The translations under genes and the position numbers were made by a program. A stretch of 64,000 nucleotides of DNA, taken from positions 43,704-107,703 of the forward strand of contig NZ_CALWJK010000004.1 in the NCBI RefSeq assembly GCF_944380975.1, given 5' to 3'. This stretch comes from an uncultured Agathobaculum sp. Lineage in GTDB: Bacteria > Bacillota > Clostridia > Oscillospirales > Butyricicoccaceae. Below, one piece after another: positions 1-3,963 of this stretch. Under the pieces are notes generated by a model that had not been told where the DNA came from, ran no database searches, and saw nothing but the letters and a program-made list of their open reading frames with translations. Each line of letters opens with the position of its first letter. The first letter of the stretch is position 1.

Positions 1-79
1 GATATCGCTTTTAGAACCGCTGTGCAAGCGCATAATTTTGTTTTGGATGATGCAAGTTATAGGAAAAGGAGGAATTGAT

Positions 80-268
80 ATGCATACTGACCCTCATTCC
101 ACTCCGCCCGCTATACAAGGAATACAGACACAGATCGGTGCAGGCACCTTTCTGGTCAGGCGGCAATATGTCGGCAGCTGTCCGGTCGGTGAACTGCTCC
201 AGCAGCGTGTGCAGCAAGCCGCACACACAACATCATCCATTGACGAGGGGATCGGCGCCGCGGTATAA
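80..268 (+). CDS. Small recombinase-associated protein (TnpW-like, tentative)
   Basis: A 62-residue ORF with a good ribosome binding site (AGGAGG a few bases before the ATG at 80) placed directly upstream of the serine recombinase in the same direction. It has a short core, residues about 12-36 (IGAGTFLVRRQYVGSCPVGE), reminiscent of the small proteins of the form 'IGxxTYxVxxxF' that often precede TnpX-type recombinases in clostridial elements, some annotated TnpW. Its function is unknown; a role as a recombinase accessory factor is inference from position. The ATG at 80 is preferred to earlier ATGs because only it has a ribosome binding site. Confidence 0.5.
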   Translation: MHTDPHSTPPAIQGIQTQIGAGTFLVRRQYVGSCPVGELLQQRVQQAAHTTSSIDEGIGAAV

Positions 269-305
269 TCATTGCGTGAGCCGGTTCTGAAAGGAGTTAA
301 ACCAC

Positions 306-1979
306 ATGAGAACCGGTAACAAGACATTGGCATTCGCTTACTTGCGTCTTTCCAACGAGGAAGCGCACAGCAGTGAATCGTCCAGTATTGCCAACCAGCG
401 GCAAATGATTCGGGACTACTGCCAGCGGCACAGCATTATGCTGGTACGCGAATTCGTGGACGACGGCTACTCAGGCGGTAACTTTGACCGTCCTGCATTT
501 CAGGATATGCTGCGGCAGCTGCACGATAACAAGGCCAATATGGTGCTTACCAAGGATCTGTCCCGCCTCGGGCGCGACATGCGCGAAGCCAGCTATTACG
601 CCGAGCAGTTTTTCCCGGAGCACGGCATCCGCTATCTAACCATTGCAGACAATTTTGACACTGCACATGAAAACGTCATGGCGCCGTTCCAGTTTGCCAT
701 GAACGAGGTCTATCTGCGGGACGGTTCACGCAAGGTTAAAGACGTGCTGCGCAGCAAACGGGAAAACGGCCAGTACTGTGCCTGCCCGCCCTATGGCTAT
801 CGTAAGAATCCGGCAGACAAAAGCCGTCTTGCCCCGGACGAGCAGACTGCCCCCATTGTTCAGCGTATTTTCGAGCGGGCAGCAGCCGGGGATTCCTCGC
901 GTAAGATCGCACTTGACCTGAACGCAGACAGCGTTATCCCCCCGCTCAAATACCGTGTGCTGTTTCGTGATGATTTCAGCCCAGAGGGCGCGGCACGGGC
1001 ATCCGACCTGTGGAACTACACTACCGTCAAACGGATTCTCAAAAACCCAGTCTACCTCGGACACACTTTGCTGGGCAAAAGCCGCAAGGTCAGCGTCAAG
1101 TCCAAGAAAAAGGTAGCTGTACCGCAAAGCGACTGGGCCGTGACGCATGACACGCATCCCCCACTCATCACACAGACGCTCTATGAACAGGCGCAGCGCA
1201 ATCTGGGACGCGGACAACACGCCAATCGTACCGATAGAGACATCCGCAAGAGCATTTTTGCCGGACTGGTGTTCTGCGCACGCTGCGGACACGCGCTCTG
1301 TTCCTGCGGCACAGTCTACAAAGGAGAACGGGGAAAATACTGGTATTTGTCCTGCACACATCAGCGCGGCGATATCGCCAATCGATGCGATGGCGTGCGC
1401 ATCAAATATGCGGATCTGATCGAAGTAGTGCGGCGCGATCTCAACGATCTGCTGACGCTGACCGATACACAGGCCGAAGCGCTTGCACGGGCAACCGCAG
1501 AACGGGAGCAGGGCGCATCCGAACGCACAGCACGGCAAGCCCGCTTACAGCAGGCACAGTCCCGCCTGCTGACCATCGACAAAGTCATTACCAAGCTGTA
1601 CACGGACAACGCCGAAGGCCGACTGGACGACGATCGTCTGACGCGCATGGTCGAAGCGCTCGAGCAAGAATCCGCTTCGCATCAAGCCGTTATCGCAGAG
1701 TTATCGCAGACGTTTCCACCGCAGGAGGACACAGAGGAACGCTTTCGACGTTTCTTTGCGCTTACCAAGCAGTACAGCCAGATCGACGTACTCGACCGCG
1801 ACACACTGCTCACCTTTGTCGAACGCATTGAAGTCGGGCCCAAGCAATTTGCCGACGGCCGGCGCAAAGCGACCCACCGCAATACCCCCTACCGGCAGAG
1901 CATCCGCATATCGTATCGCTTTATCGGTGAAATTACAACCGACAATGCGCAAGTGCTCGATGCATCCTGCAATTTTTAA
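306..1979 (+). CDS. Large serine recombinase (site-specific integrase/excisionase)
   Basis: A 557-residue member of the large serine recombinase family (TnpX/phiC31-like layout). Residues about 8-150 form the resolvase catalytic domain: the nucleophile is Ser16 in AYLRLS, and the conserved arginine motif LSRLGRD follows near residue 85. A recombinase domain follows (about 170-280), then a zinc beta-ribbon starting with Cys324 and Cys327 (FCARCGH) and ending near residue 365, a charged coiled-coil stretch (about 385-460) and a C-terminal DUF4368-like segment (RIEVGPKQ and following). Such enzymes cut and rejoin attP and attB to insert or remove an element. AAGGAGTT precedes the ATG. No truncation is visible, so it should be active. 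It points toward the interrupted SASP gene. Confidence 0.93.
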   Translation: MRTGNKTLAFAYLRLSNEEAHSSESSSIANQRQMIRDYCQRHSIMLVREFVDDGYSGGNFDRPAFQDMLRQLHDNKANMVLTKDLSRLGRDMREASYYAEQFFPEHGIRYLTIADNFDTAHENVMAPFQFAMNEVYLRDGSRKVKDVLRSKRENGQYCACPPYGYRKNPADKSRLAPDEQTAPIVQRIFERAAAGDSSRKIALDLNADSVIPPLKYRVLFRDDFSPEGAARASDLWNYTTVKRILKNPVYLGHTLLGKSRKVSVKSKKKVAVPQSDWAVTHDTHPPLITQTLYEQAQRNLGRGQHANRTDRDIRKSIFAGLVFCARCGHALCSCGTVYKGERGKYWYLSCTHQRGDIANRCDGVRIKYADLIEVVRRDLNDLLTLTDTQAEALARATAEREQGASERTARQARLQQAQSRLLTIDKVITKLYTDNAEGRLDDDRLTRMVEALEQESASHQAVIAELSQTFPPQEDTEERFRRFFALTKQYSQIDVLDRDTLLTFVERIEVGPKQFADGRRKATHRNTPYRQSIRISYRFIGEITTDNAQVLDASCNF

Positions 1980-2026
1980 TAAATTTCTTGTATCTATTGC
2001 TTTAAGATGGTGCAGGAACACCAAGG

Positions 2027-2155
2027 GAGGTTGGCGTCAACCTGAAGCAGGGCTATAACGGCGATCTGACTTCCCGTCAGGCTGGCTCGATCGGTGGTCA
2101 GATGGTCAAGAAGATGATCGAATCCTACGAGCAGAACCTGGCTGGCCAGGGCTGA
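2027..2155 (+). pseudogene. 3' fragment of an alpha/beta-type small acid-soluble spore protein gene, split by the element
   Basis: Translation from 2027 gives EVGVNLKQGYNGDLTSRQAG (first 20 residues) followed by SIGGQMVKKMIESYEQNL and a TGA stop at 2153-2155. This is the conserved second half of clostridial SASPs, the proteins that coat and protect DNA in dormant spores; the GxNxTSRxAGSxGG pattern is diagnostic. The N-terminal half, start codon and ribosome binding site are absent, replaced by sequence downstream of the serine recombinase. The in-frame stop at 2003-2005 blocks any fusion to upstream sequence. The missing half is predicted at the far (left) end of the element. Excision could restore a whole gene. 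It could not be expressed as it stands. Confidence 0.88.
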
Positions 2156-2168
2156 TCTGAGGCAATAG

Positions 2169-2220
2169 AAAGCGCGCGGCTTCCGGACTGATTCCGGAAA
2201 CCGCGCGCTTTTCTTTTTTT
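2169..2220. terminator. Rho-independent terminator, probably shared by the SASP gene (+) and ptsI (-)
   Basis: A strong GC-rich hairpin: AAAGCGCGCGG (2169-2179) pairs with CCGCGCGCTTT (2201-2211), extended by TTCCGGA repeats around the loop. A T-rich tract follows on the plus strand to 2220. It lies between the SASP stop at 2155 and the ptsI stop at 2251, which converge on it. Confidence 0.85.
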
Positions 2221-2250: not shown

Positions 2251-3963
2251 TCAACCGCGCCACTCGGCAAAAATCTGCTCCGCATCGGTCGCACTTGCCG
2301 CTGCAACCAGCTTATCCGCCAGTTCCTTGCACTCCGCGTAAGAATGCGCCGCCAGATCAGCCTTAGCCGCCAGCATCGCGGAAGCAGACATAGACAGGTT
2401 GGTAACTCCCAGACCGCAGAGCACCGGCGCCATGCCCGGCGTACCAGCCATTTCACCACATACGCCAACCTCGATGCCGTTCTCATTGGCTGCCTTCGCC
2501 GTCATCGCAATCAGACGCAGCACGCCCGGATGCAGCGGACGATACAGATACGAAATCTTCTCATTGATACGGTCGACCGCGCAGGAGTACTGAATCAAGT
2601 CGTTCGTGCCGATCGAGAAGAAGTCAACTTCCTTCGCCAGAATATCCGCGCAAACGGCAGCCACCGGAATTTCGATCATGATACCGACCTTGACATCCGG
2701 ATTGTGCTCCACGCCCTCCGCTGCGAGCAGATCCTTCGCCTGCTGCAGAACCTGCTTGGCATTGCGGATTTCCTCGATCGAAGAGATCATCGGGAACATA
2801 ATACGCAGATCACCGTACTTCGCCGCACGCAGCAGGGCACGCAGCTGGGTCAGGAACAGATCGGTCTTATTCAGGCAGATACGGATCGCACGGTAGCCCA
2901 GGAAGGGATTCTGCTCCTTCTCCAGCTCAAGTGCCGGCACTTCCTTATCGCCGCCGATGTCCAGCGTACGGATGATGACCGGCTTGCCCGCCATGATTTC
3001 GCACGCCTTCTTATATGCTTCAAACTGCTCTTCCTCGCTCGGCAGATCATCGCGGTCCATAAACAGGAACTCGGAACGGAACAGGCCAACGCCTTCGCCG
3101 CCCAGGTCCGCTACGCGGACTGCGTCATCCGGCGTACCGATATTGCCTTCCACGATGATGCGGCGGCCGTCGCTCGTTGCGCCCTGACGATCCTTGAACT
3201 TCGCCAGCATCGCACGGCGCTCGTCCTCCGCCTTTTTCTTCTGCTCGAACTGTGCCAGCGTTTCCGCATCCGGATCGACCACGACTTCACCTGCCACACC
3301 GTCAAGCAGCAGATCGGAACCGTCTTCAATACCGTCCACCTTGTCGCCTGCGCCTGCAACGGCCGGAATACCGATCGAACGCGCCATGATTGCAGAATGG
3401 CTGGTACGCCCGCCGATACGGGTGATAAAGCCGACAACCGGCTTGGAGCCGATCTTTGCCGTATCCGACGGTGTCAGGTCATTGGCAATGATGATGCACG
3501 GCTCGGTGATCGTGTCGATTGCATTATCCGCAATGCCCTTCAGATTTTTGAGCACACGCTTGGAAATATCACCGATATCCGCTGCACGCGCCTGCATATA
3601 TTCACTATCCATCGCGCGGAACATCGCCTGGAAATTCTCGCAGTTGACAAAGCAAGCATACTCCGCGCATACCTTTTCCTCTTCTACCAGATTGGTCATA
3701 CCCTCAATAAAATCCGGGTCGTCCAGCATGAGCAGATGCGCGTCAAAAATTTCTGCCTCAGAGGCACCAATGTTTTTCTCCGCCTCATCGCGCAATGTCT
3801 GGATCTGTTTTTTGGCATTTTCCACCGCATCGGTCACACGTTTCTGCTCGGCCGCAACATCTGTGATGCTGTCCTTGACGACCGTCAGATCCTCCTCCTT
3901 GATGACCAAAGCTTTGGCATGCGCAAGACCCTCCGAAACGCCAATCGCTTTAAACTTGACCAT
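2251..3963 (-). CDS. ptsI: Phosphoenolpyruvate-protein phosphotransferase, PTS enzyme I
   Basis: 570 residues, the normal length for enzyme I, which takes phosphate from PEP and passes it to HPr to energise sugar uptake. Seen: the N-terminal HPr-binding and swivel region with the phosphorylated His189 in GGRTSHSAI, then the PEP-binding TIM barrel with LDIGGDKEVP, IGTNDLIQY and the C-terminal GVCGEMAG motif. The ATG at 3963 starts MVKFKAIGV and has AGGAGG before it; the longer frame to 4020 adds residues that lie upstream of that site and is rejected. It stands alone: ptsH (HPr) is not adjacent in this window. A consensus-like promoter lies at 4026-4054, divergent from the DUF1015 gene. Confidence 0.97.
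   Translation of the reverse strand: MVKFKAIGVSEGLAHAKALVIKEEDLTVVKDSITDVAAEQKRVTDAVENAKKQIQTLRDEAEKNIGASEAEIFDAHLLMLDDPDFIEGMTNLVEEEKVCAEYACFVNCENFQAMFRAMDSEYMQARAADIGDISKRVLKNLKGIADNAIDTITEPCIIIANDLTPSDTAKIGSKPVVGFITRIGGRTSHSAIMARSIGIPAVAGAGDKVDGIEDGSDLLLDGVAGEVVVDPDAETLAQFEQKKKAEDERRAMLAKFKDRQGATSDGRRIIVEGNIGTPDDAVRVADLGGEGVGLFRSEFLFMDRDDLPSEEEQFEAYKKACEIMAGKPVIIRTLDIGGDKEVPALELEKEQNPFLGYRAIRICLNKTDLFLTQLRALLRAAKYGDLRIMFPMISSIEEIRNAKQVLQQAKDLLAAEGVEHNPDVKVGIMIEIPVAAVCADILAKEVDFFSIGTNDLIQYSCAVDRINEKISYLYRPLHPGVLRLIAMTAKAANENGIEVGVCGEMAGTPGMAPVLCGLGVTNLSMSASAMLAAKADLAAHSYAECKELADKLVAAASATDAEQIFAEWRG

Follow-up and report, generated by a model that had tools for sequence, protein, structure and literature searches.

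A conserved serine-recombinase element divides the single alpha/beta-type spore protein gene of Agathobaculum and related bacteria and is probably a programmed intervening element

The analysis of a 64,000-nucleotide stretch from an uncultured Agathobaculum sp. (contig NZ_CALWJK010000004.1, positions 43,704 to 107,703; hereafter the window) confirms that a serine-recombinase element has inserted into a gene for a small acid-soluble spore protein (SASP), which serves as its attB site. This had been proposed in a preliminary description of the same DNA, and it is now borne out by the 5' half of the gene, matching junctions, a palindromic attP and empty sites in relatives. The element, which carries the large serine recombinase LSR1, is a conserved intervening element in a single alpha/beta-SASP gene and probably a programmed one. 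It is likely that a skin-like programmed excision rebuilds this gene at sporulation, with the timing, the compartment, re-insertion and the role of a small element-encoded protein being what we infer around that reading.

Results

The interrupted SASP gene

The 3' half of the SASP gene (Table 1) aligns with profile positions 21-59 of PF00269 (E = 7.1e-19, above the curated cut-off), has no start of its own and is preceded by an in-frame TAA at 2003-2005, with the large serine recombinase just upstream, all as first described. The fragment had been taken for the last third of a SASP coding sequence, which was right as to the protein and too low as to the length: it holds 42 of the 71 codons (59%). 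A chance match as the source of the fragment was ruled out by this E value and by the finding of the 5' half, which had been suggested to lie left of position 1 and is indeed located about 23.1 kb upstream, outside the window, on the same contig and strand (G000:C4:22517-22605, G000 being the window genome). It covers PF00269 positions 1-27, carries a ribosome-binding site and a start, reads MTNTKNGSNQGMVPEARAAMDRFKMEAAAEV and then departs from SASP sequence. Fused at their common GA, the two halves encode a 71-residue alpha/beta-type SASP in frame, and arithmetic on the coordinates gives an intervening element of 23,126 bp between the two GA cores.

This arrangement was further examined in close relatives, where an uninterrupted gene was also sought. 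An intact SASP gene is present in G013, G018, G021 and G022 with the neighbours of the window locus, namely an EF-G-type GTPase with a C-terminal NYN domain on one side and ptsI on the other; an uninterrupted gene between identical flanks represents an empty site, and the interior is thus an insertion. Neither an element lacking a SASP 5' half at its left end nor an intact upstream gene beside a duplicated tail, the two arrangements named beforehand as telling against insertion, was encountered. The idea that SASP genes are multi-copy, and the site hence a safe one, proved false for the window genome: the two halves are its sole PF00269 matches in an assembly that is 91% complete, a further copy in the missing part being conceivable there. 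Agathobaculum massiliense (G012, 100% complete) likewise has two SASP halves only.

Table 1. Features at the right end of the element and its junction with the host (window coordinates)
Feature	Position	Strand	Remarks
Right end of the intervening element	1..2028	+	Bounds are the shared GA cores; continues left outside the window to G000:C4:22606
Forespore-type promoter-like site ahead of the small gene	30..59	+	GCATA-N18-CAAGTTA; 10/12 consensus positions; read from sequence
Small gene, candidate recombination directionality factor	80..268	+	62 aa
Vegetative-type (sigma-A-like) promoter for LSR1	240..269	+	TTGACG-N18-TATAAT; read from sequence
Large serine recombinase LSR1	306..1979	+	557 aa
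P arm of attR	2001..2028	+	Outer motif 2001-2010, core GA 2027-2028
SASP 3' half	2027..2155	+	42 codons plus stop; PF00269 match
Terminator-like feature: G+C-rich inverted repeat, then a T run	2171..2220	+	Just 3' of the SASP stop; by eye
Phosphoenolpyruvate-protein phosphotransferase (ptsI-type), right-hand host neighbour	2251..3963	-	Pfam PEP-utilizers_C 2.7e-115

Attachment sites of LSR1

Both attP and attB were rebuilt for 31 genomes in which the two SASP halves were at hand (LSR1 genomes with both halves left out of the join were G078, G079, G082, G083, G090, G094, G095, G098 and G101), and the rebuilt SASP gene is open and in frame in 31/31. The attP arms form an inverted repeat centred on GA, that is, a palindrome, with a match of 72% (dyad 0.717), and moving one arm by 1 to 5 bases either way (ten shifts) lowers this to at most 0.294 (29%). 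In the left attP arm, a TTTAAGATG-like motif stops 17 bp short of the core in 27 of the 31 genomes (three unrecognised, one at 14 bp), its partner begins 17 bp from the core in the right arm of 29, and in attB the outer motif ends 12 bp from the core in all 31, so that the attP motif is the more distant by 5 bp. An integrase structure paper (PMC3783163) describes just such a 5-bp displacement of the zinc-domain motif between the two kinds of site, and the sites rebuilt here show both features of large serine integrase sites, namely the dyad around a 2-bp core and the 5-bp shift of the outer motif. Because this shift resembles that of integrases, the FKM codons of the SASP gene appear to be read by LSR1 as a half-site. 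Past the P' arm, the first 100 bp of element sequence following the 5' half also contain conserved motifs (e.g., L002 1570-1630, L130-L147), which read ACATACCGGCTCACA in Agathobaculum and ATTACTTATTTAGGT in several others and to which the recombinase or its factor might bind.

Distribution across genomes

In a set of 60 genomes, the window genome included, eight have just two SASP halves (G000, G001, G004, G005, G012, G014, G016 and G051) and three have a single half (G011, G015 and G023), with G011 and G023 carrying the 5' half and lacking both LSR1 and the 3' half. Judged by the best match per genome, LSR1 is present in exactly the nine genomes with a SASP 3' half, at an identity of at least 84% within the genus and 59% in G051, and the best listed serine-recombinase match in each remaining genome reaches at most 42% identity to LSR1. 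A species-level genome collection was scanned with short peptide patterns, a scan that misses some relatives, and returned 58 loci, 57 of which are LSR1 at at least 57% identity, from Agathobaculum, Flavonifractor, Flintibacter, Oscillibacter, Dysosmobacter and other genera. Next to a SASP half end 51 of these 57 loci: 42 run into the 3' half (a count including L087, read by eye, and excluding L125, a fragment beside an intact SASP) and nine have the 5' half next to them on the other strand (L098, L099, L100, L103, L104, L107, L112, L116 and L121). Elsewhere, the contig ends before LSR1 is complete (L120, L124), its P arm is joined to non-SASP DNA (L077, L105), or a fragment of it stands beside a whole SASP (L123, L125). 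The recombinase has switched element ends in three parts of its tree (a tree without support values), as though the element had inserted into the gene anew in the opposite orientation. In L077 (~3150-3200, Flavonifractor An306), the P arm is fused to a non-SASP coding sequence and an intact SASP lies on another contig; this junction is a secondary integration site.

A PF00269 search covering 42 of the 57 LSR1 genomes found no junction-spanning match in 38 of the 42, with both halves in 32 of these and the 3' half only in six; the exceptions are G061, G093, G099 and G100. Eleven pairs have both halves on a shared contig: ten are in direct orientation with 4 to 76 kb between the halves, and the remaining one (G080, 6.9 kb) is inverted. 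The P arm is visible at 53 loci, at none of which it is joined to a P' arm, and an exact attP pattern, which misses variant arms, had no match in 394 genomes, few of them LSR1 carriers. Isolates with the split gene include the gut commensal Agathobaculum massiliense Marseille-P4005, on a 3.2-Mb contig, and Flintibacter muris. In an order-wide sample of 197 genomes, 175 have a SASP match and six have the two weak matches of the split pattern (G000 and G051 verified), indicating that the split SASP is a widespread minority state, with the proviso that kinship among the sequences inflates all counts reported here. Among the matches listed, the SASP match of G055, G113, G133 and G244 stops at profile position 51-52, as if interruption at the second site of the gene (that of LSR2, below) extended to further families within the order. 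A search for GPR, the SASP-degrading protease, succeeded in 42 of 56 genomes (14/14 of the relatives set and 28/42 LSR1 genomes), and the enzyme is absent from one clade (G088, G090, G091, G094, G096 and G097), whose members may handle SASPs differently or sporulate poorly.

Selection and age

Both SASP halves are under purifying selection. In Agathobaculum, the split 5' halves have a pN/pS of 0.011 (9 sequences) compared with 0.059 for that part of intact genes (11 sequences), and the split 3' halves have 0.121 (8 sequences) compared with 0.110 (12 sequences). LSR1 itself has a pN/pS of 0.29 over 49 stop-free sequences, and its synonymous divergence tracks that of ptsI within the genus across 21 pairs (slightly the higher of the two in each), the relation to be expected if the two have long resided together. 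The split arrangement is old, and in the ptsI tree intact species are interspersed with split ones, partly with low support. Contig-end cuts aside, the only shortened copies of LSR1 noticed are those of L123 and L125, each next to an intact SASP. In Colidextribacter OB.20 (G100; L125, L168 1965-2188, L188), the promoter and 5' half of the SASP gene are present as a second copy (224 bp, 99.1%) at the point where LSR1 is cut, thereby restoring an intact SASP, and the original 5' half still stands next to the P' arm; the pattern suggests that selection favours an undivided SASP where the recombinase no longer works.

The recombinase, the small gene and their promoters

LSR1 contains the Pfam domains Resolvase, Recombinase, Zn_ribbon_recom and DUF4368. 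The elements of its vegetative-type promoter (TTGACR, 17-18 bp, TATAAT, with at most one mismatch) occur ahead of LSR1 in 46 of 51 loci and in none of them in a control stretch taken from within the gene. At 37 of 49 loci, a small gene (45-67 codons) was recognised before LSR1. In its 51-codon class (17 sequences), pN/pS is 0.50, or 0.37 over codons 1-36, and 0.98 and 1.67 in the other frames, the lower value in the frame of the gene being a coding signature. Compared with Pfam and NCBIfam, known directionality factors included, the small protein matched nothing above cut-off, and the best lead, TnpW (E 0.15), was below cut-off and arose in one of 18 members. We consider the small protein a candidate directionality factor for LSR1.

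Upstream of the small gene, the pattern GHATR, 18 bp, CATWHTA (at most two mismatches), which we take to be the sigma-G consensus of B. subtilis, was found at 25 of 32 non-redundant loci, five of the 37 having been removed as near-duplicates. By comparison, the same pattern at twelve other spacings occurs at 0 to 6 loci, and 200 shuffles give a mean of 1.5 and a maximum of 8. For several of the 25, the distance to the start codon of the small gene is about 40 nt, not 17-23. The SASP promoters of these bacteria commonly have a similar -10 element (CATACTA or CAAACTA). In C. difficile, sspA and sspB are described as sigma-G genes, and sigma-F and sigma-G promoters as strongly alike (PMC3789822); because the two are so alike, "forespore-type" is as far as a sequence-based assignment can go.

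Element content and origin

The Pfam search of nine of the larger interior open reading frames (ORFs) of the window genome's element identified an SLH/Big_2 protein, a response regulator, a sensor kinase, a sugar-binding protein, an ABC ATPase, a permease, a galactose-1-phosphate uridylyltransferase, an OPT transporter and an M20 peptidase, with no phage structural, lysis or transfer family among the nine. The galactose-1-phosphate uridylyltransferase lies inside the element in G000, G001, G005 and G014 and on a contig other than that of the SASP locus in G003, G015 and G023, and this changing location implies that the cargo is not fixed. Plasmid matches to LSR1 reach at most 33% identity among the eight matches listed, single scans of viral contigs with the LSR1 protein and with the P arm gave no match, and against the CcrB profile LSR1 scores 100.2 bits, below the Ccr threshold of 900. 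A phage origin of LSR1 was considered and set aside: the best match in a phage collection (50.5% identical) is an unverified faecal scaffold that itself carries a SASP 5' half. In this human scaffold filed as phage (L187, MT836041.1), the 5' half follows the recombinase on the opposite strand, and a reverse transcriptase ORF is also present.

A second recombinase at the same gene

A second, unrelated serine recombinase (LSR2) cuts the same SASP gene again at GGQMVK|K, leaving tails (L160, L161, L163, L164, L165, L167) and middle pieces (L076, L081, L083, L085, L086, L094, L095, L097, L125), and in six of eight loci examined the LSR2 C-terminus runs in frame into the SASP tail. In G064, G066, G075 and G100 the pieces are in direct orientation and separated by 7.5-15.4 kb, and in Flintibacter muris (G068) they lie on opposite strands at a distance of about 89 kb; a search with the SASP tail pattern found none in G067, G074 and G077. 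LSR2 has a Rep-type protein and a relaxase nearby and therefore looks mobile. A sigma-G-like promoter ahead of LSR2 was unconvincing across seven start points (10/12 at best in one, 8 or 9 in six).

Discussion

A model of programmed excision

The probable sequence of events would begin in growing cells, where LSR1 would be made from its sigma-A-type promoter and, on its own, would favour the integrated state. Late in sporulation, a forespore sigma factor would switch on the SASP promoter together with the small gene before LSR1, the small protein would act as directionality factor, and LSR1 would then recombine attL with attR, restoring the SASP frame exactly at GA. In direct-orientation pairs (10/11) this would excise a circle of 4 to 76 kb, and in G080, with its inverted halves, it would invert 6.9 kb without loss. 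The spore would retain the circle, and re-insertion would follow germination, at a time when LSR1 would be present without the factor. SASPs act in the forespore, which is why the circle is expected to remain in the spore. Since the interrupted gene codes for a SASP, and C. difficile transcribes such genes with sigma-G in the forespore, recombination would be expected in that compartment, possibly with excision inside the future spore itself, and such excision would alter the heritable genome unless the circle re-inserts. Re-insertion, which we infer, fits the vegetative promoter of LSR1 and the integrated state displayed by the assemblies. The fullest form of this model, in which each forespore excises the element from its own chromosome for the sake of SASP, keeps the circle and re-inserts it at outgrowth, alternating with every spore generation, is tentative, and we would lean slightly against it as a complete account.

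Programmed excision as such draws on the 31/31 in-frame joins, the integrase-type sites, the linkage of LSR1 to SASP at 51 of 57 loci, the 38 of 42 genomes without a spanning match, purifying selection, and the vegetative- and forespore-type promoters, and it is further supported by the skin precedent and by the whole SASP beside LSR1 fragments in two genomes. Counted against it are the lack of a recombined product among the assemblies, the gaps in GPR, the intact species amid split ones and the lack of a factor-family match.

Alternative explanations

The same locus might instead be a mobile genomic island that uses the SASP gene as its attachment site, excises occasionally without developmental control and permits good spores only after its loss. 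Cargo that varies by species, P arms on non-SASP DNA in L077 and L105, LSR1 at either element end in different parts of its tree and the use of the same gene by a second recombinase would all suit such an island, whereas the fixed spacing of the forespore-type promoter ahead of the small gene, the tracking of ptsI by LSR1 synonymous divergence within the genus and the lack of a phage or transfer family in nine of the larger interior ORFs argue against it, and overall we judge it unlikely. It is improbable that the insertion simply inactivated a SASP that was no longer needed, with the halves as relics: despite the clade without GPR and the retention of only a 5' half, without LSR1, in G011 and G023, both halves evolve like intact genes (0.011 and 0.121 versus 0.059 and 0.110), the joins are in frame in all 31 genomes, and LSR1 is stop-free in the 49 copies compared, at a pN/pS of 0.29. 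Conservation of the split across many genera likewise favours programmed rejoining over mere disruption.

A split protein, with the two half-proteins functioning separately, would agree with the promoter, ribosome-binding site and start retained by the 5' half, but the 3' half is startless behind an in-frame stop and the 5' half terminates in variable element-coded residues, making this reading very improbable. The chance that the structure is an assembly artefact of metagenome bins, from which most LSR1 records come, is close to negligible given the same structure in the isolates Agathobaculum massiliense (3.2-Mb contig) and Flintibacter muris and the identical junctions across dozens of separate assemblies.

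Comparison with known elements

Programmed excision of the LSR1 element would place it in the skin-type class, with which it shares two in-frame halves, a recombinase beside the attachment site and direct attL/attR (10/11). In the C. difficile skin element, which interrupts sigK, the recombinase CD1231 is described as constitutive from sigma-A and the directionality factor CD1234 as under sigma-E, confining excision to the mother cell (PMC5025042). As described there, skin likewise has its recombinase inside the element with a sigma-A-type promoter (promoter-like here) and a small factor under a sporulation sigma that sets the time and place of the rebuilding, to which the candidate small gene with its forespore-type site would correspond, but the skin target is a mother-cell gene and the present target a forespore-type gene. 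The gin element in gerE of Bacillus cereus ATCC10987 (28.6 kb) is also a non-phage intervening element in a very short sporulation gene; it differs in having three recombinase genes, compared with one beside the site here, in a target that acts in the mother cell, and in being described from one strain, whereas LSR1 elements occur in dozens of species (PMC5595907). The SP-beta prophage in spsM of Bacillus subtilis uses a large serine recombinase and a small factor for a precise excision at sporulation that rebuilds the host gene, and excision only in the mother cell leaves the spores to inherit the prophage; SP-beta, however, is an active phage, and the LSR1 element has no phage families in nine of its larger ORFs (PMC4191935). 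The yin element in yabG of Clostridium botulinum, again a sporulation gene, has a recombinase and a putative directionality factor, but it is prophage-like, is described as unique to one strain and has a target other than SASP (PMC10747680). SCC cassettes (Ccr) resemble the LSR1 element in combining a serine recombinase, variable cargo and a fixed target gene, and LSR1 is distantly CcrB-like; the target differs, and a sporulation-type promoter stands ahead of the small gene here. No split SASP gene appeared among the matches listed in a search of the open-licence PMC literature on spore elements and SASP, and this, together with a target gene that belongs to the forespore, would make the LSR1 element novel within the skin-type class.

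Implications

SspA and SspB of C. difficile are described as providing UV protection to spores and as required for mature spores (PMC11392383). In the programmed rearrangements of spore formers compared here, mother-cell genes are affected and the rearranged genome is discarded; if programmed excision of the LSR1 element is true, the rearrangement would occur in the cell that founds the next generation, and the question becomes how the element survives. Gene finding on such split genomes would overlook the SASP. In addition, dozens of LSR1 loci each supply a recombinase, its attachment sites and a candidate directionality factor as a natural set. If the model holds, the protection of spore DNA, and perhaps survival outside the host, would depend on a recombinase in many gut bacteria.
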